A stretch of DNA of 35,052 nt from a virus: the IMG/VR virus record IMGVR_UViG_3300010883_000173, positions 1 to 35,052 of that record; one strand, 5' to 3'. This document shows, piece by piece, positions 1,127 to 20,961 of this stretch. The number at the start of each line of letters is the position of its first letter. Positions within the stretch are counted from its first letter, which is position 1. The translations under genes and the position numbers were made by a program. The notes beneath the pieces were generated by a model. It did no database searches. It had not been told where the DNA came from and saw only the letters and a program-made list of their open reading frames with translations.

Positions 1127-4100
1127 ATGGCAGAACAGACATTCAGATCGCCTGGCTTTTTCGAAAGAGAAGTAGACTTAACGCAAAGAACAACTGAGAT
1201 CATCGGTGTTCCTGCAGGCGTGATCGGTACATCTTTGAAAGGACCTGCTTTCGTTCCAATAACTGTTGGAAGTTTTTTAGATTTTGAAGAGAAATTTGGA
1301 ACACTTGATCCTGACAGGTTCGGGCCTTACGCTGTTAATGAGTGGCTTAGGCATAGAACAGCACTAACTTTTATTCGTGTGCTCGGAGCCGGCGCCAATG
1401 AAACAACAACTGATATATCAGCTACAAGAACAAAAGGTACTGTTAAGAGTGCCGGATTTAAAATTAAAGGAACACAGATTGGCGCCAACGCCGGCGCGGG
1501 CCATGTTCAGTTTATTGTTGCAGGTCATGACATAAAGACAGGAGTTGAGACAAATGGTTATCCTATCTTTACAGATAACGATTCGACAAACTCAGCAACA
1601 TACGTCAACCTAGTCAGAGGGGTGATATTTACAGCGACTGGATCCAGAGTTCAGGTCATGAATAGTGATGCAAATTATTCAACTGGAAGATCAGCTACAC
1701 CAGACTTTGCAAAAATAAGTCAGTATGATGACTCTCGAGATCAGGGCGCGTTCAGGTTAATCCTCTCGTCTGCGATTGGAACAGATTTTGGAAACGATGA
1801 AGGTCATGCAGGAATTAGAATTCTTACAGCATCACTGGATCCATCAAGCATTCACTACGTTGGAAAAATTCTTAATACTAATCCTGAGAGATTTAATGAA
1901 GAGCAACACTTGCTCTACTTAGATATGCCTGTACAGAGCGAGGTAGCTAATGTTTCAAGACCGGTAACTGGTGGGACTGTAGTAACTGCATCAGTAGGAA
2001 TTGTGTCTGGTAGTGCTGCAACGACTAAGTCCGGCGGAGGAAAAGGAACAGCGTACAGTGAACTTTTTGGTTCTCTTAATACTCGATACAGACCCGCACA
2101 AACGACAAAATTCATATCACAACCTTTTGGTTCTAAAGAATATAATCTATTCCACTTTGAAACACTTGATGATGGTGCAAATGCAAGTGCAAAATACAAG
2201 ATTTCTATAGCAAATCTTAAAAGATCAATTGATCCAAAAGATCTGTACGGAACATTTACAGTGTTAATTAGAGCCTTTGCTGATTCTGATACAAATCTTA
2301 AAATACTAGAACAATACCCGCTTTGTACCCTGAACCCAAACGATGAAAGCTATATTGCAAATAAAATTGGAGATATGAAAGTAACGTTTAACTTTGATGC
2401 TGAAACAGAATCTGAGCGTAGACTTAATGTTTCTGGAAAGCGACAAAATAAATCAAAATTTGTAAGAGTAATTATGAACGGTGACGTCGATGATCAATTG
2501 ACGCCGGCTGAAGCAATGCCTTTTGGCTTCAGAGGACTACCTGTAATGAAAACATCAAATTCACTTACAGACAGGGCAAATTCTACAATCTCTGGCGTGG
2601 GCCACACGACAGCTGCCTCAACAGCGCTTAGGCTTACTGGTTGCAGAGGAGCCTTAACAACTGATGAAACACTTTTACACTTAACATCGTCAATTGTTCC
2701 GCCTGTTCCGCTGCGCTACAAGGCCACACGTGGTGCAGTTAGCAATACTTCATCTCCTTACTTTACTGGTTATCCGGGAACACTTGAATTGGCAGACTCA
2801 AGATTCTACTTTGGCGTACAGTTTGAATACTTACCCTTCTCCAGCAGCTTTACAAACGCAGCACTTCAGGCAAATGCAAGTGCTACTCCAAACCCGCTTA
2901 TTAAGTCACTTTCAAAATTTGCAGGCCTCGCACAGATGGACGCTCTTGTGACAGGAAGCGGCGCAGACAGGCTAAACAATAACAAGTTTACTTTAGCGAA
3001 AGTTGCATTTTCAAACGAACCTGCTTCTTCTACAACAACCCTAACATCAGCTATCACAACTGCAATGACAGGCGCGACATCTGACCACATGCGAGAAGCA
3101 GCTTACATTAGAAATGGATCACCTCGTGCACCAAGATACACAGTTGAAGATGGTGACAGAACTAGATTGACCTTTGGAAGTCTTATGTCAGCAAGATCAT
3201 CAGTTCAATTTAATAGATTTACAGAGTACCTTAAGTTTACAAATATGTTTTATGGTGGTTTCGACGGGCTAAATATTCTCGATAGGGATCAAAGTTTAAT
3301 GAATGACAAAGCGTCATCGCTTTCCGCAGGTGGAAAAGCCGCCGGCGGCACTGTTTCATATCAAAACTTACACACAGACTCAGCGCCAGGCACTGGTAAA
3401 CTTAATAATACAGTTGCATCATATAGAAAAGCAATTGATATTATGACTGATGAATTTTCAACAAGAGTAAATTTAGTAGTCATACCTGGTATAAGAGATG
3501 ATTTCGTTACAAATCATGCAATTACAAGAACAGAGGCATTCAGCAAAGCAATGTATGTTATGGATGTTCCTTCATATGATGATAATGAAACTAGGCTTTA
3601 CGAAGGTGATACAGAAAGACCAAGTGTTCGAAAGTCAGTAGAAAAGTTTGCAGGAAGAGCATTAAACAGTAATTACGCAGCAGCTTATTACCCAGATGTG
3701 ATTATAAAAGATGAAATCAACGGTGACGCTGTTCAAGTCCCATCGTCTGTTGTTGCACTCGGTGCGCTTGGACTTAATGACAAGCTTTCGTTTCCTTGGT
3801 TTGCACCAGCAGGATTTAGAAGAGGTGCACTATCATCAGTACTAAACACAACAATCAGATTGAATTCAGAAGATAGAAATATTTTATATGAAACAAGACT
3901 TAATCCTATAGCTAACTTTCCAAGTAGCGGAGGCTTCGTAATTTTTGGTCAAAAGACACTTCAAATTGCAAGATCAGCGCTCGATAGAGTCAATGTTAGA
4001 AGAATGCTCTTAGAAGTAAAAAGAATTGTTTCAGACGCAGCTTTAGATATCTTATTTGAACAAAACACACCTGCAACAAGAGCAAAATTCCTTGCAGCAG

Positions 4101-4297
4101 TCAAACCGAAACTCTCACTAATTCAGTCTCAGCAAGGGATTGATCAGTTTAACGTAATTATGGACTCAACAAATAATTCTCAAGAGGATATTGAAACAAA
4201 TAGACTAAATGGTAAAATTATTCTGGTTCCAACAAGAGCAGTCGAATTTATTGCAATGGACTTTATTATTACAAATGCAGGTGTTAGTTTTGAATAG
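1127..4297 (+). CDS. Contractile tail sheath protein, first copy (gp18-like, giant)
   Basis: A 1056-residue sheath subunit, much longer than T4 gp18 (659 aa). The N-terminus (FRSPGFFEREVDLTQR, then GVPAGVIGTSLKGPAFVPI) is the typical sheath linker and first domain. The middle carries YGGFDGLNILD. The last 200 residues hold the conserved sheath core: LNDKLSFPWFAPAGF, the helix QKTLQIARSALDRVNVRR, and the terminal strand ILVPTRAVEFIAMDF that in sheath proteins inserts into neighbouring subunits. AGGAG at 1116-1120 supports the ATG at 1127. The next gene is a full-length paralogue with both ends conserved, so the extra length lies in central surface domains. Sheath identity is firm; whether both copies enter the virion is not known. 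Confidence 0.93.
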   Translation: MAEQTFRSPGFFEREVDLTQRTTEIIGVPAGVIGTSLKGPAFVPITVGSFLDFEEKFGTLDPDRFGPYAVNEWLRHRTALTFIRVLGAGANETTTDISATRTKGTVKSAGFKIKGTQIGANAGAGHVQFIVAGHDIKTGVETNGYPIFTDNDSTNSATYVNLVRGVIFTATGSRVQVMNSDANYSTGRSATPDFAKISQYDDSRDQGAFRLILSSAIGTDFGNDEGHAGIRILTASLDPSSIHYVGKILNTNPERFNEEQHLLYLDMPVQSEVANVSRPVTGGTVVTASVGIVSGSAATTKSGGGKGTAYSELFGSLNTRYRPAQTTKFISQPFGSKEYNLFHFETLDDGANASAKYKISIANLKRSIDPKDLYGTFTVLIRAFADSDTNLKILEQYPLCTLNPNDESYIANKIGDMKVTFNFDAETESERRLNVSGKRQNKSKFVRVIMNGDVDDQLTPAEAMPFGFRGLPVMKTSNSLTDRANSTISGVGHTTAASTALRLTGCRGALTTDETLLHLTSSIVPPVPLRYKATRGAVSNTSSPYFTGYPGTLELADSRFYFGVQFEYLPFSSSFTNAALQANASATPNPLIKSLSKFAGLAQMDALVTGSGADRLNNNKFTLAKVAFSNEPASSTTTLTSAITTAMTGATSDHMREAAYIRNGSPRAPRYTVEDGDRTRLTFGSLMSARSSVQFNRFTEYLKFTNMFYGGFDGLNILDRDQSLMNDKASSLSAGGKAAGGTVSYQNLHTDSAPGTGKLNNTVASYRKAIDIMTDEFSTRVNLVVIPGIRDDFVTNHAITRTEAFSKAMYVMDVPSYDDNETRLYEGDTERPSVRKSVEKFAGRALNSNYAAAYYPDVIIKDEINGDAVQVPSSVVALGALGLNDKLSFPWFAPAGFRRGALSSVLNTTIRLNSEDRNILYETRLNPIANFPSSGGFVIFGQKTLQIARSALDRVNVRRMLLEVKRIVSDAALDILFEQNTPATRAKFLAAVKPKLSLIQSQQGIDQFNVIMDSTNNSQEDIETNRLNGKIILVPTRAVEFIAMDFIITNAGVSFE

Positions 4298-4328: not shown

Positions 4329-7300
4329 ATGGGTGAAATTACTTTTAGATCAGCTGGAGTAAGCACAAGAGAAATAGATCTTTCGCAGCCCACTTCTAGG
4401 GGTCCGACAGGTGTGCCAGCCGGTATTATTGGTACGTCTCAAAAAGGGCCGGCCTTTGTTCCTCTTACGTTCGGAAGCTCAGCAGATTTTGTGATGGCTT
4501 TCGGAGACGGCAGCGATGACAATCAGCAAGGCATCGGTTATGTCGCAGTAGAACAGTGGTTAGCAAACGCTGGGTCTTGTACTTACTTGAGAGTTCTTGG
4601 TGTAGGAGATGGCAAAAAAAGGTCGTCTTCTACTGGAAATGTGACAAACGCGGGTTTTGTTGTAGGGTCAAAAGAGATTCAGAACAGCGGGTTGGTGGGT
4701 GACAGTATTTATTCAAATGCCGGAGTGGGTTCAGTAGAGGGAAGAACATACTTTCTGGGCTGTTTCATGTCTGAGTCGAACGGTAACACGATATTCAGTG
4801 AGACTGGTATACAGAAGACTACAGCTGCAGTCCCAATTCTACGTGGCGTGCTTTTGGCACCCAGTGGAGTTGTTATACATATGGGAGCAAAAGATCAAAC
4901 AGCACCTTCAGCTACCTTAACAGCAAGAGCGACTAGCACAACTGGGATGGGAAGAAAAGGTCATATCACCGGATCTGTCGATCTTAAGGGTGGAAATCAG
5001 GAGTTTACTTTAGTACTTAACGGCCACAAAGGGTCGACAGACTATCCTAACTTAATTTCTGGATCATTTGATGTAGCTTCAGGACAATACATATCAAAAG
5101 TTTTCAACACGAAACCTTCAAGAATTGAAGAAGCAGGTCACTTACTTTACTCGCACTTCGATATTCATCCAAATTTGGCAATAACAACAGGATCGGGCGC
5201 CATACAGGCAGCACTCGGTTCTGAAGAATCCATTGGTTTCCTTCTTACATCATCAGTTGCAAGGGTAGGAAAGGGATCAGGAGCACTATCTGCAAACGTG
5301 CCTGTTTATGAATCTTTCGAAGATAGATTCACAACACCCAAAACGCCTTTTATAACATCACAAGGTTATGGTGCCACGCCTTATAATCTATTCAGATTGC
5401 ATTCAGTCGATGACGGGTCTTTTGCAGCCGGCAAATACAAGATATCAATAAAAAATCTTAAGAAGTCAATGTCAGACACAGACCAGTACGGAATATTTGA
5501 TCTTTATGTTAGAAATATAGAAGACTCAGACGATTCGCCTGCTATACTTAAGACATTTTCTGGTTTATCACTAGATCCAGGCTCTGACAGATATATTGCA
5601 AGAATAATCGGAGATCAGCATGTTAGATATGACTTTGATAGTAATGCAGAATCACAAAAACTCATAATTGACGGAACACACCCGGTTACAAATAACTTTA
5701 TTAGGGTTGAAATGTCTGAGGCTATGAAAAAGAAAGAAGTCCCTGAGGACGCCTTGCCTTTCGGCTTTAGAGGGCCCGATCATCTTGTGACATCAGGAAC
5801 ATTGCTATGTACTCATAACGACCGCATGGTAGTTACCGACCTTTTTAGGCGAATTCAGCCTCCCCCAATACCCTACAGAAGAAAGATAACGCTTGGAACG
5901 GGCACAAGCATAGATACTAAGAGCTATTTCTTCTGGGGTTTTAATACAGAAAGGTGGGAACAAATTGAAGATTCCAACGCTCCTGCACCTATCGCAGGAT
6001 CTGTATCAGTTAATCCTTCATCGCACGATCTAGGCATAGGTGGGTTTACTAAGTATTACCCAGTGCATAGAAAAGATGCAATAAACTTTGCTGTTGGCAA
6101 TAATCAAGGCGTGGCAGATACAGCGGGATCTACTTTAGACTGTGACTTGTTTCAAAAAAGTAGATTTACTCTTGAAAACATTAGAGTAAGAACAGGTTCT
6201 TTCTTAGAAAATAAAAACAAAGCACACTCAGACTACTGGGTGAGCGCATCTTACGTAAGAGACGGAAATATATCTGTTAATCACGAAAATAAAACAAGAG
6301 CACTTTCAGTTGACGACTTAGAAGTTAATGCTAATAGAAACTATATAAAGTTTACCATTCCTATGCAGGGAGGCTTTGACGGACTTGATATCTTTGATGT
6401 TGAAAAACAAAGAATGACAAACACTGCAGCAAAGAGAGAAATGGACGACGAAGTCTTGCAAGGTGGCATAGCAGGCTCAACAGTCTCAGCTTACAGAAAA
6501 GCAGTTGATATAATGGGAGACACGTCAGGCGTTGATATTAAGTTATTGGTATCTCCTGGTATGAGACATGCTTCAATAACAGACTATGCAATCAATGAAG
6601 TGGAGACAAGATTTGATGCAATGTACATCATGGATATTGAAGAGCGAGATGAGTTTAACACTGTTATTACATCATCACTCCAAACACCTCATGTTTCAAA
6701 CACAGTAACAGCATTTAGAAATAGAGGACTTGATTCTTCGTTCGCAGCTGTTTACTTTCCCGATGTAACTGTTAATCACCCAGCAACCCATACAGCAATG
6801 GACGTTCCTCCATCATGCGTCGTTCTTGGTGCATATGCACTTAATGACAAGTTAGGTCATCCATGGTTTGCGCCTGCTGGCTTTTCTAGAGGTTCAGTTT
6901 CTAATAACAGTAACGGTGCATACGAACAAGCCTCGGCAGGCCTTGAGTTAAATAGAGAAAATTTGGATGATTTGTACGACGCAGATATCAATCCAATAGT
7001 TGCATACCCAGGGCGCGCCCTGAGTGTCTGGGGTCAAAAGACACTGCTCGCAGGTGCATCAGCACTTGATAGAGTTAATGTTAGAAGGCTTTTAATAAAT
7101 GTGAGAAGACAGGTTAAAAATGTTGCAAATACACTACTTTTTGAACCAAATAGATCAGAAACATTAGAGAAATTTAACGCATTAGTAAACCCAATACTTC
7201 AAAATATTCAAGACTTACAAGGACTTGATAGATTCAAGGTAATTATTGATGCTTCTACAACATCTCAAGCAGATGTTGAGAACAATACTCTTCGTGGAAA

Positions 7301-7373
7301 GATATACTTACAACCCACAAGAACAGTTGAGTTCGTTTCGCTAGACTTTGTTGCATCAAATACTGGTGAGTAA
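4329..7373 (+). CDS. Contractile tail sheath protein, second copy (gp18-like paralogue)
   Basis: A 1014-residue second sheath gene begins 31 nt after the first, with GGAG at 4318-4321 before its ATG. The N-terminus (FRSAGVSTREIDLSQP, GVPAGIIGTSQKGPAFVPL) and C-terminus (LNDKLGHPWFAPAGF, QKTLLAGASALDRVNVRR, QPTRTVEFVSLDF) align closely with the first copy. Central blocks such as YRKAVDIMGD, GGFDGLDIFD, DALPFGFRG and YNLFRLHSVDDGSFAAGKYK also align. The stretches between them have diverged strongly. This is a tandem duplication with divergence, not a fragment: both ends and the core are intact. It may form a mixed or segmented sheath, or one copy may be specialised; the sequence does not decide. 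Confidence 0.92.
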   Translation: MGEITFRSAGVSTREIDLSQPTSRGPTGVPAGIIGTSQKGPAFVPLTFGSSADFVMAFGDGSDDNQQGIGYVAVEQWLANAGSCTYLRVLGVGDGKKRSSSTGNVTNAGFVVGSKEIQNSGLVGDSIYSNAGVGSVEGRTYFLGCFMSESNGNTIFSETGIQKTTAAVPILRGVLLAPSGVVIHMGAKDQTAPSATLTARATSTTGMGRKGHITGSVDLKGGNQEFTLVLNGHKGSTDYPNLISGSFDVASGQYISKVFNTKPSRIEEAGHLLYSHFDIHPNLAITTGSGAIQAALGSEESIGFLLTSSVARVGKGSGALSANVPVYESFEDRFTTPKTPFITSQGYGATPYNLFRLHSVDDGSFAAGKYKISIKNLKKSMSDTDQYGIFDLYVRNIEDSDDSPAILKTFSGLSLDPGSDRYIARIIGDQHVRYDFDSNAESQKLIIDGTHPVTNNFIRVEMSEAMKKKEVPEDALPFGFRGPDHLVTSGTLLCTHNDRMVVTDLFRRIQPPPIPYRRKITLGTGTSIDTKSYFFWGFNTERWEQIEDSNAPAPIAGSVSVNPSSHDLGIGGFTKYYPVHRKDAINFAVGNNQGVADTAGSTLDCDLFQKSRFTLENIRVRTGSFLENKNKAHSDYWVSASYVRDGNISVNHENKTRALSVDDLEVNANRNYIKFTIPMQGGFDGLDIFDVEKQRMTNTAAKREMDDEVLQGGIAGSTVSAYRKAVDIMGDTSGVDIKLLVSPGMRHASITDYAINEVETRFDAMYIMDIEERDEFNTVITSSLQTPHVSNTVTAFRNRGLDSSFAAVYFPDVTVNHPATHTAMDVPPSCVVLGAYALNDKLGHPWFAPAGFSRGSVSNNSNGAYEQASAGLELNRENLDDLYDADINPIVAYPGRALSVWGQKTLLAGASALDRVNVRRLLINVRRQVKNVANTLLFEPNRSETLEKFNALVNPILQNIQDLQGLDRFKVIIDASTTSQADVENNTLRGKIYLQPTRTVEFVSLDFVASNTGE

Positions 7374-7422: not shown

Positions 7423-7911
7423 ATGGCCGAAACATTATCAGTTACAGACATGCTACCCAACAAGTTTGAGCCCAAAAGAAATTATCGATGGGTTCTTGCT
7501 ATAGAGGGGATTGATTCGTTTTTGATTACAAAGACTTCAAGACCTACAATAACCCTTTCTGATAAGAAAATTGAGTTTATAAACAGTTATCGAATGGTAG
7601 CTGGTAAGCTTAGTTTTGGAGACATGTCGGTAACACTTCACGATCCTATAGCACCGTCAGGTGCCCAGCAAGTCATGGAATGGATAAGAACACACTACGA
7701 GTCTGTCTCAGGAAGAGCAGGCTATGCAGACTTCTATAAGCGTGACATTCAAATTAAACTACTTGATCCGATTGGAACAGTTGTTGAATTATGGGATGTA
7801 AAAGGTGCAATGATATCAAATGCAACCTTTGGCACACTCGACTATACAGGAGACGAAACAATGGTGGTTGATTTGACACTCAAGTTTGACAACTGCGTGT
7901 TGCAATTCTAA
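7423..7911 (+). CDS. Tail tube protein (gp19-like)
   Basis: At 162 residues this is almost exactly the length of T4 gp19 (163 aa). The sequence has the tube-protein pattern: a short N-terminal arm ending in NKFEPKRNYRWVLAIEGID, alternating beta strands (KLSFGDMSVTLHDPI), one helix (GAQQVMEWIRTHYESVSGRAGYADFYKRD), and closing strands (VELWDVKGAMISNATFGTLDY, then VVDLTLKFDNCVL). It forms the hexameric rings of the inner tail tube inside the sheath encoded just upstream. AGGAG at 7409-7413 precedes the ATG. A strong terminator follows, which would allow this highly needed protein to be made in excess over the downstream assembly factors. Confidence 0.92.
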   Translation: MAETLSVTDMLPNKFEPKRNYRWVLAIEGIDSFLITKTSRPTITLSDKKIEFINSYRMVAGKLSFGDMSVTLHDPIAPSGAQQVMEWIRTHYESVSGRAGYADFYKRDIQIKLLDPIGTVVELWDVKGAMISNATFGTLDYTGDETMVVDLTLKFDNCVLQF

Positions 7912-7980: not shown

Positions 7981-8811
7981 ATGTCAAAATCTGAACTATT
8001 CGGTAGTATGCCTGAAGGGCTGCCCAAAAATGATATAATGAAAAACGACTTTGGGTGGGAAATACCTGTTGAGACTATTCCTCTTCCGTCAAAAGGTGTG
8101 ATATACTCACCAGAAAGTAGATTATACAATACAGAAACTATTGCTATAAAAGCAATGACAGCCCATGAAGAAGATATTTTATCATCGCAGGCTTATATAA
8201 AAGAAGGAACAGTTATCACTGAGCTTATTAAGTCATGCATCACAGACAAAACGATTAGCCCAGAAGAAATGATCAACGGAGATCGTGTTGCGATTATGAT
8301 TGGAATTAGAGTTACTGGCTACGGTCCTGAATATAAAGCTAGCGCAACATGTGAATCTTGCGGCGAGGCAAATAACATAGTAGCTAATCTAGCTGAATTA
8401 CCAATAAAAAGACTAACAATAAGCCCGACTGAAGAAGGTAAAAATGAATTTTCTTTCAAGTTACCTGTAACAAAAAAGACAGTCACATTTAAGTTTCTAA
8501 CAAACAAAGACGAGCAAGATAGGGTAGCAACTTCTAAAAATAGATCAAGACTTCTAAACTCAAAAACTGAAAATAATGTTACGTCATTTTTGTCACACTC
8601 GATATTATCAATCGACGGCAAGACAGACAAAGTGAAGATACAACATTTTGTTCAAAATATGCCTGCATATGACTCTAAGTCGCTAAGACAGTTTATCTCA
8701 GAGCACGAGCCAGGGATGGATATGCGATGGGCCTTTGATTGCAAAAATTGTTCATCTGAAAACGACTCAGCGCTACCGATTACGGCAGAATTTTTTTGGC
8801 CCAACAAATAA
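7981..8811 (+). CDS. gp26-like baseplate hub / tape-measure chaperone protein with zinc ribbon
   Basis: A 276-residue protein of the T4 gp26-type baseplate family. It has a proline-rich entry motif (VETIPLPSKGVIYSPES), an acidic helical segment (MTAHEEDILSSQAYIKEGTVITELIKSCI), GDRVAIMIGIRVTGYG, and two CxxC pairs at C124/C127 and C254/C257. The four cysteines probably bind one zinc. In T4 such proteins assist assembly of the central hub and tape measure. The gene lies between tail tube and tape measure, the position held by gpG and gpGT in lambda. Its last codons read GAA TTT TTT TGG and the next frame continues directly into the following gene, so part of the product may be a frameshifted fusion. 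Start is ATG with GGAG nine nt upstream. Confidence 0.78.
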   Translation: MSKSELFGSMPEGLPKNDIMKNDFGWEIPVETIPLPSKGVIYSPESRLYNTETIAIKAMTAHEEDILSSQAYIKEGTVITELIKSCITDKTISPEEMINGDRVAIMIGIRVTGYGPEYKASATCESCGEANNIVANLAELPIKRLTISPTEEGKNEFSFKLPVTKKTVTFKFLTNKDEQDRVATSKNRSRLLNSKTENNVTSFLSHSILSIDGKTDKVKIQHFVQNMPAYDSKSLRQFISEHEPGMDMRWAFDCKNCSSENDSALPITAEFFWPNK

Positions 8812-9040
8812 CTGGAGGGAAAGCTTCTTAGAAGAATGCTTTGTCCTACAGATGCACATGAACATGGGATATTCAGATGTGCGAAGATTACCAACCAGGT
8901 ACCGCGCTTGGTTTATTAAAAGATTGTCAGACTATTTCGAAAAGAAGAATGATAGCTCTGGCAATATGCCTCAAGCAGACTCATCGGATACTAAATCTTT
9001 ATCAGACTATCAGGAAATGTTAGATAAAAAATTTAAGTGA
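8735..9040 (+). CDS. Small tail assembly protein, probably made as a frameshift extension of the gp26-like protein
   Basis: This frame has no ATG before 8852. The only earlier start is a TTG at 8735, lying 77 nt inside the preceding gene without a good ribosome site. Starting at 8852 would remove the best-looking part (NNWRESFLEECFVLQMH). The frame is entered from the gp26-like gene by a +1 or -2 shift at the seven-T run 8791-8797, giving a fusion of about 352 residues: 272 from the first frame and 80 from this one. The visible protein is helical and charged (YSDVRRLPTRYRAWFIKRLSDYFEKKN). Small proteins of this look follow gp26-like genes in other T4-type phages as I recall. A tape-measure chaperone role like lambda gpT is inferred from position. 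Confidence 0.6.
   Translation: MIAKIVHLKTTQRYRLRQNFFGPTNNWRESFLEECFVLQMHMNMGYSDVRRLPTRYRAWFIKRLSDYFEKKNDSSGNMPQADSSDTKSLSDYQEMLDKKFK
8789..8797 (+). other. Candidate programmed frameshift site (T7 run)
   Basis: AATTTTTTT occurs 12 nt before the zero-frame stop (8809-8811). In the zero frame it reads GAA TTT TTT TGG; a +1 or -2 slip leads to GGC CCA ACA AAT AAC TGG and the open downstream frame. A purine-rich GGAGGG (8814-8819) and a hairpin (8821-8841, nine pairs with one bulge) lie downstream. The hairpin is further away than in typical stimulatory elements. Confidence 0.5.
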
Positions 9041-9068: not shown

Positions 9069-11420
9069 TTGGCACCTCAAGAGGTCACATTAGCGGCAGG
9101 GGACATTGATAGATTAGCTTCTGCAATTGCAACCCAAGTTGGACAAGAACTACGATCAGCATATGCACCTGGTGGTAGATCAAACGCTGGGACGCCTAGA
9201 ACCCGACCTCCGTACACAGGTGCTCCGCCTTCTGCTAGAACATCTCCAGGAACAACTAGCCAAGTGGTAGGTGCTGAACGTACTTTGCTAACGAAAATTG
9301 GTTCAGCTACTTTTGATACAGCTGAAGCTGCAATGGATTCTTACGATTCCTTTGTAAAGTATGCTAACTCAAGAAATGCTAATGCATTAGAAAATATTCT
9401 CGATAGATATGGCGGCAATCTCACAAGAGCGTATATCACAGGAAGAACACAATTAGATAACGTAGTCGAAGGTCTTGCAAAGTCACAGATTAGAATATTT
9501 AAAGATTCGTACCGCGTATTTACAAAATCAGACGTAAAAGGTTATTACAAAGACATAGAGACAATGCAGCAAGACATGTACTTTTTACAGGACCAGCTTG
9601 CTTCAAGAACATATAATGCTGCTGCTGAAATGACAGAAGGCGTCATGGAAAAATCAATCCTGTTTAAACAAACAATGGGTTACACAGGTACAGAAGTAGC
9701 AGATATGCTTCGAAGGGGCTACATTGAATCTGGAGAGACGTCTGATAAGATACTCCAGAATATAGCAGTTCATGCTTCAGAGATACACAAGGCAACAGGC
9801 ATTCCATTAAAAGCTCTTGCGCACGGCATTAAAGATGTGATGTCAGATATGGATACATTCACAAAGATGGGCGAAGCAGGTGCGAGCAGAATGACAGCAT
9901 CGTTAATGCAGATGGGTGTATCGCTCAGCGGTTTTGAAGGGATGCTCTCACCGTTTAGAGACTTTGAGACAGCGGCATCTAAAATGGGAGACTTGTCATC
10001 AATGTTTGGTATCCAACTTGATACAATGGAAATGATGTATCTTGCAAACGAAGATGAGGAAACATTTCTTCATAGAATGCGAGAAGAGCTGTTAATGCAA
10101 GGCGTAGATGTTGAGAATATGACAGGTGCAAGACAAAGAACACTGGCAAAAACTTTGGGATTGCAAGTTGGTGAAATGAGAACTTTCCTAATGACAGGTG
10201 AAAGAATTACATCACAGTCAGAGCTTCAGTCTGCAAGCCAAACAGCAGCAGCAAAAGATCAAGCAGACGCATTTAATATTATTAAGCAACAAAAAATACC
10301 TGAACTTTTTGATACAATGACAACAAAAAATCGAATAATGGGAGCAGAGATGTCAAAAAATGCTCGTCATGTTCTGCGATTAAAAGAGGGACTAATTGGT
10401 GTCAATAAAGAAATGGGTAAATTCTTAAATTCAGACGAAATGAAGAGAGTTCGAGCAGAAAATTCAGCTGCTATGAAAATAATAGGCGAAGCACCCGAAG
10501 TATTAGTAAAAGCAATGAAGAACCTTCCAAAAGTTTCGCTTTTACCCGATGCCAAAGAAATCAAAAAAGCAGCAGATGAAACTGCAAAACTCATCGCGCC
10601 CGGCGTTGAGTCAACAATCGCCGCTTTTGGCAAAAGCGGCGAGGATAGTGGAAAAGCCTTCGAAGAGAACTTCGCCAAGTCCGCGGTTGGGCAAGGCAGC
10701 TCCCTCTTCTCCGAGTCGCCTATTGCATTATACACAGAAGATATCAAGCCTGGAATTGAATCCATGATTAAAGACATGGAGAAGCAAGGGCAGATAGCAG
10801 GTAAAAAGTTTGCTAATGGTGTAACTAAAGGATTTAAGGGCGGGTATACAGCTATAAAGAATCCGTTCAAAAAATTACCTACTTTTGCTAAAAACGCCGG
10901 AGTCCAGTCTGTAAACAACTATATGGAAGCACTTTCAAAATTAGATGCTGAGGCGATACAAAAGGTCTTAGGTCCAGATTTAATGAATAAAATTAAGTTA
11001 GATTTTGAAGCAAAGGCCGGCATAATTGTAGACAACATTGCATTATCCCCTGATTCAACTTTTAAGATGGACGGAGGAAAAATCGAATTGTCAGATATGA
11101 CAGCAGTTGCAGATAATTTAAAAATTATATCATCTAGACTAGTAACAGCAATGCCTGCAGTTCCTGGCACCGAGGCAGAAAATACAGAGATACAAAGACT
11201 CATTAGCGCTAGCGAAAAACAAACCGCAGATACGCTCGCAGAAGAGATTGCCGCAGCTGTAGTAGAAGGATTTAAAAGCTTAGGTAGTATAGGTTACGAA
11301 GGTGATATAACACTATCAATTAATGGTGACACCGTCTTAGAAGCAATACCTAAAGTAAAATTAACTAAAATAGTAATGGAAACTCCCGTAAAAGGCAAAG
11401 TCATTGCAAGCGTATTATGA
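9069..11420 (+). CDS. Tail tape measure protein
   Basis: A 783-residue, mostly helical protein. The start is TTG: TAGGAG at 9057-9062 is spaced six nt from it and no ATG lies nearby in frame. The N-terminus (VTLAAGDIDRLASAIATQVGQELRSA) is followed by a Pro/Thr/Ser-rich linker and then long helices with many Met and Glu. GVSLSGFEGMLSPFRDFETAASKMGDLSSMFG lies near residues 285-316. The C-terminal part ends in short beta strands. Length, composition and position after tube and chaperone genes support a tape measure that sets tail length (T4 gp29 is 590 aa). Residues about 510-560 are coded by an unusually GC-rich patch with a perfect hairpin. No lytic domain is visible. Confidence 0.75.
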   Translation: MAPQEVTLAAGDIDRLASAIATQVGQELRSAYAPGGRSNAGTPRTRPPYTGAPPSARTSPGTTSQVVGAERTLLTKIGSATFDTAEAAMDSYDSFVKYANSRNANALENILDRYGGNLTRAYITGRTQLDNVVEGLAKSQIRIFKDSYRVFTKSDVKGYYKDIETMQQDMYFLQDQLASRTYNAAAEMTEGVMEKSILFKQTMGYTGTEVADMLRRGYIESGETSDKILQNIAVHASEIHKATGIPLKALAHGIKDVMSDMDTFTKMGEAGASRMTASLMQMGVSLSGFEGMLSPFRDFETAASKMGDLSSMFGIQLDTMEMMYLANEDEETFLHRMREELLMQGVDVENMTGARQRTLAKTLGLQVGEMRTFLMTGERITSQSELQSASQTAAAKDQADAFNIIKQQKIPELFDTMTTKNRIMGAEMSKNARHVLRLKEGLIGVNKEMGKFLNSDEMKRVRAENSAAMKIIGEAPEVLVKAMKNLPKVSLLPDAKEIKKAADETAKLIAPGVESTIAAFGKSGEDSGKAFEENFAKSAVGQGSSLFSESPIALYTEDIKPGIESMIKDMEKQGQIAGKKFANGVTKGFKGGYTAIKNPFKKLPTFAKNAGVQSVNNYMEALSKLDAEAIQKVLGPDLMNKIKLDFEAKAGIIVDNIALSPDSTFKMDGGKIELSDMTAVADNLKIISSRLVTAMPAVPGTEAENTEIQRLISASEKQTADTLAEEIAAAVVEGFKSLGSIGYEGDITLSINGDTVLEAIPKVKLTKIVMETPVKGKVIASVL
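10620..10640 (+). repeat. Perfect 9-bp hairpin inside the tape measure gene
   Basis: GCCGCTTTT pairs perfectly with AAAAGCGGC around a GGC loop. No T-run follows, so it is not a classical terminator. It lies within a local GC-rich patch (about 10590-10735). Confidence 0.6.
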
Positions 11421-19222: not shown

Positions 19223-20296
19223 ATGAACAAACTTTATAGTCATGTTTCTGTACAAGAAGTAAAGATTAACAAGGAGTTTTCGCCAAGCTCTTCTGGTAAA
19301 ATTATAAAATATAACAAGAAAGGAATAAAAATAGACATTCATTTAATCAATAGAATGCGCATGATAAGTAAGCTCGACCCTATTATGACTTATAGAGAAT
19401 ACTTTTTATTTTTCTGTAATCAGCTTAATATCAATAAAGACGATATAATTCGTTGGGACTTATTACTTGACAAAAGTTCAAATAATAAATATGCAACCGA
19501 ATTTATAAACATGGTTAAGCAGTCATTATCACATTTAACAACATATCATTTTTACACATATCCAAAAAGATTAGAACTTTATGACAATCTTGTTGACATC
19601 TTGGATTCATCTGGAAAAGAGATAGCTAAACCTACATATATTCATGAAAGCTTGACAGGGCGAACTAGTATTAAAAAAGGGTTTAATTTTTTGACATGTA
19701 GTAAACGCGAAAGAGCAGGAATGAAATCAAAAAATAAAGACTACAATCTTATTGAAATTGATTTTAAATCTTGTGAACCAAGCCTGTATTTGCGATCAAT
19801 GGGCATTGATTTTGGTCATGATGATGTATACAAATTTCTTTCTGAAGAGCTTAAGCTTGCTGTAAAAGATAGACAAACACTCAAGCGTGGTATTTTGTCT
19901 GTTCTTTATGGTGCAAGTAATTCAACATCACAAAAGCTATTAGGTGGAAAGTCTGCTGATTTAAATAAAATAAAGACATTTTTTCAACTTGAAGAATTTG
20001 AGTCATCGTTAAAAAAAGAGTTCAAAGAGAATGGTTGTATATACAATATGTACGGAAGGCCTGTTTACTCAGACAAGAGTTTGATAAATAAATGGATACA
20101 GTCATCAGCGGTGGACTTTTGTAATCTAGCATTTCTTGAGTTTGTAAATAATAATAATGTCAATGCTTGTTACACAGTACATGATAGTATAACAGTTGAA
20201 TGTCACAAAGATGATTGTTTGGCTATGAAAGGTACAAAAACAATGATTGAAAGCTCTTCTGGCATAGAACTCCCAGTTGATGTAATCATAAGTTAA
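19223..20296 (+). CDS. polA: Family A DNA polymerase, polymerase domain only
   Basis: All three palm/finger motifs are present. Motif A is LIEIDFKSCEP with D180 and E185 (Pol I D705 and E710). Motif B is R217-K221-L225-Y229-G230. Motif C is VHDS with D321. TGR at 145-147, YGRP at 277-280 and IQSSAVDF at 292-299 match further Pol I positions (Q293 equals Q849). At 357 aa the protein is shorter than the Klenow polymerase part alone, with a small thumb and no 3'-5' or 5'-3' exonuclease domain. The Pol I Phe762 position is Leu225, and the HDE glutamate is Ser322. The ATG at 19223 lacks a clear ribosome site and the frame is open upstream. It may be the replicative enzyme with proofreading supplied elsewhere, or a repair polymerase. 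T4-type phages normally use family B. Confidence 0.88.
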   Translation: MNKLYSHVSVQEVKINKEFSPSSSGKIIKYNKKGIKIDIHLINRMRMISKLDPIMTYREYFLFFCNQLNINKDDIIRWDLLLDKSSNNKYATEFINMVKQSLSHLTTYHFYTYPKRLELYDNLVDILDSSGKEIAKPTYIHESLTGRTSIKKGFNFLTCSKRERAGMKSKNKDYNLIEIDFKSCEPSLYLRSMGIDFGHDDVYKFLSEELKLAVKDRQTLKRGILSVLYGASNSTSQKLLGGKSADLNKIKTFFQLEEFESSLKKEFKENGCIYNMYGRPVYSDKSLINKWIQSSAVDFCNLAFLEFVNNNNVNACYTVHDSITVECHKDDCLAMKGTKTMIESSSGIELPVDVIIS

Positions 20297-20961
20297 TCTT
20301 TAGATTCAAACTTTCTTAATCTTGCTACTCCGTTATCAATTGTTACATAAGTTTGATGCGTAACCCAATCACCAGAATTGATATATGTCTTGATACTTTG
20401 ATCTTCACTTACCCATATGAGCGCCTCAGGTATGTGAGTGTGACCCATAATGAATACATCAATTTTCGGATTGTGACGTAAAATATTAATAATTGATCTT
20501 AGCTTGTGCTTTTTAATCTGAATCTCAGTCCACCAAGTTGTAAAGTCAAAACTAAATGTGAATTCTAAAACGTTCTGCAGTACTGATAGAAATTTGATAA
20601 ATAACTTGTTGTGTATCATCCCTTTGTCGTAAGCATCTCCGTGCTCAATTCTAAATTTTCTCCCATTATCTTCAAAATCATATCGTTTTAAAAAGGTGAT
20701 ATTGAAGAATTTTTTGTCAACTAAGCCAAGTAAGCTTTCGTCATGATTTCCAACAACATAGATAATGCTTTTATTTTTATAGTCAATTGAGCTTATGATT
20801 TCCATACATCTTTCTGTAAAGACTGGAATCTTAATAAAATCGATAATATCACCTGCGAGTACCAGCTCGTCATATTCTTCTGTTTTCAAGAAACGCAGCA
20901 ATCTTTCTGATCGATAGAATTTTGTCCCAATATGGGTATCTGAAATAATAATTCGTTTCAT
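20293..20961 (-). CDS. LpxH-like calcineurin-family metallophosphoesterase
   Basis: This 222-residue protein has the full two-metal set: SDTH (D8, H10), GDIID (D38, D41), GNHDE (N72, H73), HGD (H107) and GHTH (H174, H176). The order and spacing resemble UDP-2,3-diacylglucosamine hydrolase LpxH and its relatives. A hydrophobic and aromatic insert at residues 118-145 (LFIKFLSVLQNVLEFTFSF, TTWW) could touch a lipid or membrane. It is the only gene on this strand. Its stop overlaps the polymerase stop by four bases (TTAA, 20293-20296), so the two genes converge. An AT-rich 79-nt divergent gap lies upstream. The substrate is unknown: lipid A precursors, nucleotides or a protein phosphate are all possible. 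It is not the SbcD/gp47 nuclease, which is larger. Confidence 0.82.
   Translation of the reverse strand: MKRIIISDTHIGTKFYRSERLLRFLKTEEYDELVLAGDIIDFIKIPVFTERCMEIISSIDYKNKSIIYVVGNHDESLLGLVDKKFFNITFLKRYDFEDNGRKFRIEHGDAYDKGMIHNKLFIKFLSVLQNVLEFTFSFDFTTWWTEIQIKKHKLRSIINILRHNPKIDVFIMGHTHIPEALIWVSEDQSIKTYINSGDWVTHQTYVTIDNGVARLRKFESKD

Follow-up and report, generated by a model that had tools for sequence, protein, structure and literature searches.

Comparative evidence for a programmed +1 frameshift yielding two tail-assembly proteins from one T4 gp26-type gene

Organization of the Locus

The window, meaning here the whole stretch of DNA that was analysed, corresponds to the IMG/VR virus record IMGVR_UViG_3300010883_000173 and is 35,052 bases long. 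Its tail genes appear in the order sheath, tube, G, T (Table 1), and the last two are located between tube and tape measure as in the G/GT arrangement of phage lambda, a position that an earlier reading made from the letters alone (the sequence-only reading) had recognized. In the annotated relatives the tape measure gene comes next after G/T. The corresponding gene of the window was assigned by position only, as profile searches returned no family match for it and a comparison with the tape measure of phage immuto showed no similarity.

Table 1. Features of the G/T locus and its neighbours in the window
Feature	Position	Strand	Evidence
Tail sheath protein gene	4329–7373	+	phrog_23, E 5.1e-57
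Tail tube protein gene	7423–7911	+	phrog_4542, E 7.2e-28; PF06841, E 3.5e-7
G-like gene, gp26-type protein of 276 aa, short (0-frame) product	7981–8811	+	PF12322 (T4_baseplate); phrog_150
Slip site TTT TTT TGG (0-frame codons)	8791–8799	+	First TTT invariant among 90 distinct +1-type relatives
T-like extension, +1 frame, 81 aa (FGPTNNWRESFLEECF...), in the predicted fusion only	8795–9040	+	dN/dS 0.175; conserved domain; homology to T4 gp51 C-terminus/cyanophage "gp51"
TAA stop codon of the short product	8809–8811	+	
RNA hairpin directly 3' of the gp26 stop, possibly stimulating the shift in close relatives of the window	8812–8851	+	Codon randomisation; pair conservation
Gene that follows, with a TTG start behind TAGGAG; tape measure candidate	9069–11420	+	Position only

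The sheath gene is large and duplicated. Two tandem genes (1127–4297 and 4329–7373) encode proteins of about 1,000 aa each that carry the sheath core and C-terminal domains in their last part, the first one matching phrog_23 with an E value of 1.9e-57. Farther along, a 357-aa ORF (19223–20296) matched only the C-terminal part of the phage DNA polymerase (phrog_17 positions 1060–1198) and is perhaps a split or divergent polymerase. Its end is overlapped by 4 nt by a metallophosphoesterase-like gene (20293–20961; phrog_1649, E 8.4e-8), which lies on the minus strand in a region otherwise plus-strand.

The product of the G-like gene matched PF12322 over residues 51–273 with an E value of 1.2e-14 and 54.9 bits (cut-off 24.5), and phrog_150 with an E value of 3.8e-17. 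The profile match covered most of the protein and placed it in the T4 gp26/gp51 family, in agreement with the sequence-only reading, which had called the gene T4-type and gp26-like. The AlphaFold model of the protein had a pLDDT of 89. No significant fold match was found in the PDB for either half, G or T; the HK97 tail assembly chaperone (2ob9) was a weak and non-significant structural match (E 2.1, probability 0.30, TM 0.46 by target).

The last codons of this ORF are GAA TTT TTT TGG CCC AAC AAA TAA, with a run of seven Ts at positions 8791–8797. The codons had been correctly described before, although as lying 12 nt before the stop, a distance that holds only when counted from the start of TGG: nine bases (CCC AAC AAA) separate TGG from the stop. 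The +1-frame ORF extends to position 9040. A start-codon scan of this frame found a single ATG, GTG or TTG before the conserved domain, the TTG at 8735 deep inside gp26, the next being the ATG at 8852, and the coding-like sequence NNWRESFLEECF begins 5' of that ATG. Both observations bear out what had been noted from the letters, namely the absence of a start between 8738 and 8852 and coding-like sequence well before 8852. A +1 shift at TTT TTT is predicted to yield a fusion of about 352 aa and about 40 kDa.

The Proposed Slip Site in Relatives of the +1 Type

Relatives with the +1 offset were obtained from IMG/VR (28 loci with the window protein, and 80 of at least 599 with the gp26 of Flavobacterium phage immuto) and from phage records. 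The frame break at this junction recurred in every examined relative with an intact junction; this recurrence and the substitution rates given below go well beyond chance. Among the intact-junction relatives from these fetches, the next conserved coding sequence was in the +1 frame, except for two -1 cases described below. In the alignment of the junction, which had been suggested as a check on the frameshift, the +1 offset was kept and the run of seven Ts itself was sometimes broken. The slip codon was TTT in all 90 distinct gp26 proteins of the +1 type and the base behind it was always T or C, the following codon being TTT (49), CTT (31), CTA (5), CGC (2), TTA, CGT or CAG (one each). Elsewhere in these gp26 genes only 72% of the Phe codons were TTT. 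The TTT-Y rule was partly used to locate the slip sites, and no locus failed it. Thirteen further relatives in bacterial bins fit the +1 pattern, including TTC TTT CGG.

The same +1 design was also visible in the Streptomyces phages L038, L039 and L040, with CTG TTT CAG/CGC near the end of a gp26-like gene. Their genes are annotated only as hypothetical or baseplate proteins.

Coding Capacity of the +1 Frame and the Downstream Hairpin

Over 335 pairs, the T frame 3' of the slip had a dN/dS ratio of 0.175 and the gp26 frame one of 0.143; for the +1 frame on the 5' side of the slip the ratio was 1.004. In that 5' part the +1 frame held 4.2 stops per 60 codons, whereas downstream a median of 83 codons was free of them. 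The T domain is under strong purifying selection.

A stem-loop was present directly after the gp26 stop in the window and in the relatives L001–L010 and L017. Compared to protein-preserving codon randomisations it was stronger, with a mean z of -2.47 and p ≤ 0.05 at 8 of the 10 loci (controls -0.85 and -0.80). Its pairs were kept at 90%, and four of them had changed on both sides. The hairpin begins 14 nt after the T run, farther away than is common for shift sites; one possibility is that it makes ribosomes pause at the stop codon. The protein-preserving recoding test detected no selected hairpin in the Flavobacterium-phage branch or in L011–L025; the hairpin is therefore not a family-wide requirement.

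A Second Branch with a -1 Offset

A second branch comprises cyanophages, a Pelagibacter phage, KVP40 and others. The profile phrog_150 matched S-PM2, P-SSM2, HTVC008M, phiM12 and Cr30 in two pieces, the first at 3–234 and the second, which overlaps it, at approximately 227–281 in another frame. The second piece was also visible in KVP40 and PhiW-14 with phrog_634. In these seven phages and in Atu_ph07, the junction contained T TTT TTY and the second piece was in the -1 frame. The two -1 cases mentioned above, RAS14 (L035) and the jumbo phage LR756511 (L032), fit the same pattern. The sequence-only reading had missed this -1 version of the split in cyanophage-type T4 relatives.

A cyanophage-type set was made of 80 IMG/VR relatives of S-PM2 gp26, corresponding to 57 distinct proteins. 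All 57 distinct genes carried NNT TTT TTC, with T always in the -1 frame. The codon before TTT TTC was TCT, AGT, AAT, GAT or GCT (Ser, Asn, Asp, Ala), and its third base was always T. Bacterial -1 sites of the dnaX layout combine a slip heptamer (X XXY YYZ) with an upstream SD-like element and a downstream hairpin. Such a canonical site is not met in the window, where T is in the +1 frame. The cyanophage branch meets it, with the invariant T TTT TTC, an SD-like GGAGGG located about 10 nt upstream of the slip site, and a hairpin with z values of -2.5 to -3.0. Folding energy was low right after the slip, with a mean z of -3.03 against dinucleotide shuffles and of -2.52 against recodings that preserve the T protein (controls -0.04 and -0.67). 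RNAalifold gave no single consensus hairpin for this branch because the subclades place different stems at the same site. Examples of stems by subclade in L081–L160 were GTATGGCTCA/TGAGTCATAC, GCCCTC/GAGGGC and GTTTGTTTTATAATA/TATTATAAAACAAAC, and these hairpins often included the ATG of the annotated gp51. In the gene tree the direction of the shift clustered with ancestry, the deep order being unresolved.

Relationship to T4 gp26 and gp51

A profile of 32 T domains of the +1 type aligned along its length with the cyanophage/T4 gp51 C-terminal profile (hhalign probability 90%, E 1.6e-6). The score was 35.6, and none of 200 column shuffles exceeded 22.9. An HMM built from the +1-type T domains and run on 4444 six-frame ORFs placed the T frames of the other branches at the top of the list. 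When the +1 profile was compared to the single T4 gp51 sequence the match was not significant, and the link to T4 thus depends on the cyanophage sequences. This relationship of the shifted domain with the gp51 C-terminus had also escaped the sequence-only reading.

PF12322 and phrog_150 each recognize T4 gp26 (208 aa) as well as gp51 (249 aa), but only gp51 reaches the end of the phrog_150 profile and matches phrog_634. Since gp51 alone has the extra C-terminus, T4 seems, from these profile matches, to encode a short form (gp26, or G) and a long form (gp51, or G+T) as separate genes. The end of T4 gp26 reads GAG TTC TTT GAG and contains no slip site. We infer that the T4 state arose by gene duplication and loss of frameshifting, a scenario that the gene tree does not resolve. 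In the Campylobacter phage CP81, a gp26-like gene of the short type precedes a gp51-like paralogue in which G and T are in frame; a two-gene solution like that of T4 thus also occurs in Campylobacter phages.

In the literature, T4 gp26 and gp51 are listed as hub assembly chaperones, and gp51 is described as required, as missing from the particle and as "of unknown function" (PMC3004832). For KVP40, the annotators reported a resemblance to 40 residues from the T4 gp51 C-terminus, and Sullivan et al. (2010) described a cyanophage gp51 of about 20% of the normal length, without the first 200 residues or so (PMC3037559). Neither of the latter two passages mentions frameshifting.

At L024:6767–6958 the T domain gave weak matches to two Pfam families, DUF592 and DUF6760, the latter with an E value of 1.6e-4 that falls short of the curated threshold. 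Other contractile systems might have DUF6760 as their T half.

Alternative Explanations

The T domain could be a separate protein, started at the TTG at 8735 or at an unusual start by reinitiation after the gp26 stop. This TTG does belong to the window's open +1 frame. Many -1 genomes of the cyanophage type offer an ATG immediately 3' of the gp26 stop, where S-PM2 and KVP40 have a short "gp51" annotated, and separate translation of T may therefore coexist there with the fusion. As a substitute for the fusion, a separate protein appears improbable. In 18 of the 83 distinct T frames of the +1 type, neither the open stretch on the 5' side nor the first 12 codons contained an ATG, GTG or TTG; 11 of 46 distinct cyanophage-type T frames had no start codon by codon +8, and HTVC008M likewise has none early enough for a separate T. 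Independent initiation also leaves the fixed TTT-Y and T TTT TTC runs unexplained, and both domains are part of one polypeptide in T4. In the relatives L002–L007 no more than the last 26 nt ahead of the gp26 stop are open in the +1 frame, and the shift must happen within this stretch, which includes the T run.

A -2 slip, as in phage Mu, leads to the same frame as a +1 slip, and the seven Ts of the window would permit the re-pairing. The sequence-only reading had left the choice between the two, both of which indeed enter the downstream frame, but its -2 option did not survive the comparison and is in our opinion even less credible than a separate T protein. The sites TTT CTT TGG (31 distinct genes), TTT CTA TGG, TTT CGC and TTC TTT CGT keep the frame without -2 re-pairing, and all of them fit a +1 slip at UUU-Y. 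A +1 slip is favoured since tRNA-Phe on UUU can re-pair on UUU or UUC in every case, whereas -2 is impossible in the CTT, CTA and CGN variants. Slippage of the RNA polymerase, by which bases would be added or dropped and the fusion made from an edited mRNA, would suit the run of seven Ts of the window and many relatives; however, this run is broken in 35 +1 loci (TTTCTTTGG) with an unchanged frame offset, and we give this explanation hardly any weight. A sequencing error or a decayed gene, in which a lost base split one ancestral ORF, has nothing in its favour beyond the frame break itself and is refuted by the relatives, as the same break exists in well over 100 independent records with the low downstream dN/dS.

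A Model for the Expression of G and T

We consider it highly probable that a programmed +1 slip gives two tail-assembly proteins from this one gene. The claim that a programmed frameshift joins the gp26-like gene to the next frame is thereby strongly supported, by comparison and without any measured product. The basis consists of the two coding frames, the conserved slip codon and offset, the selection on T, the hairpin of the close relatives and the homology to gp26/gp51. What is inferred, in the absence of protein or ribosome-profiling data, is that ribosomes slip, how often they do so, and that the products act as chaperones.

In the proposed model, most ribosomes would terminate at 8809 and produce the gp26-like short form, G. 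A minority would slip by +1 on UUU UUU UGG, the P-site tRNA-Phe leaving its UUU codon to pair with the UUU that overlaps it, or with UUC in some relatives. The junction would then read ...E-F-F-G-P, with a fusion junction peptide ...ITAEFFGPTNNWR, and the slipped ribosomes, now translating in +1, would append T, a helical domain of 81 aa. The many short forms would coat or solubilise the tape measure and the few long forms would recruit tube subunits, in the manner of G/GT. The same pair would be reached in other branches of the family by a -1 frameshift on T TTT TTY, and in T4 by having one gene for each protein. Given its position, the two-product design and T4 genetics, the gp26-type pair probably works by analogy like lambda gpG/gpGT on the tape measure, an inference made without binding data. 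The earlier suggestion that the gp26-type protein is a G-like chaperone finds support in the position, the two products from one gene and the T4 gp26/gp51 class, no homology to gpG having been found.

Atkins et al. (2016) reported G-T frameshifting in -1, -2 and +1 versions, conserved "except T4" (PMC5009743). It is reasonably likely, with less assurance than for the slip itself, that T4 is no exception: frameshifting, +1 in some lineages and -1 in others, would be general in the superfamily, and T4 would have duplicated the gene instead, gp26 (G) and gp51 (GT) being chaperones of the gp29 tape measure.

Comparison with Known Systems

Lambda gpG/gpGT, like P2 E/E+E', Mu and HSTV-2, shares with the window a single gene between tube and tape measure, a low-level frameshift near its 3' end, here inferred, and a short C-terminal extension. 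It differs in the G half, which is here of the T4 gp26/gp51 type (PF12322) with no detectable relation to gpG, and in the shift, which is +1 at UUU-Y in the window and -1 in the sister branches. The T4 pair has the G domain in both proteins and the T domain in the extra C-terminus of gp51, but comes from two genes without frameshift, where the window would use one gene for both. The short "gp51" of cyanophages and KVP40 is the same T domain directly behind gp26. It is annotated as free-standing, whereas the T TTT TTC site, the hairpin and the frame indicate a gp26-gp51 fusion by -1.

Frameshifted tail chaperones are already known. What appears new is the occurrence throughout the T4 superfamily, at gp26 UUU-Y (+1) or U UUU UUY (-1), and the interpretation of T4 gp26/gp51 as the unfused/fused pair: no report of frameshifting in gp26/gp51 genes was found in open-access full texts, subscription papers being outside the scope of this search. 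If this is true, the T4 exception to G-T frameshifting vanishes, and gp26 and gp51 gain a testable role. Many genomes of cyanophages, Pelagibacter phages and Bacteroidota phages would then hold a mis-annotated or unannotated fusion. One protein pair obtained via +1, -1 or separate genes would also be useful to study how recoding signals change direction.

At the level of the slip site, the P-site codon can re-pair one base forward as in E. coli prfB (CUU UGA C) and influenza PA-X (UCC UUU CGU), and some relatives resemble these sites with CUU UGG C and UUU CGU/CGC/CGG. Unlike prfB, the A site holds no stop codon (it is usually UGG), and no conserved prfB-type SD element at the 3 nt spacing was found in the window clade. 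The slip sites of L033 and L254, which read UUU CGU/CGG, are close to the core of the PA-X +1 site (PMC3498833).
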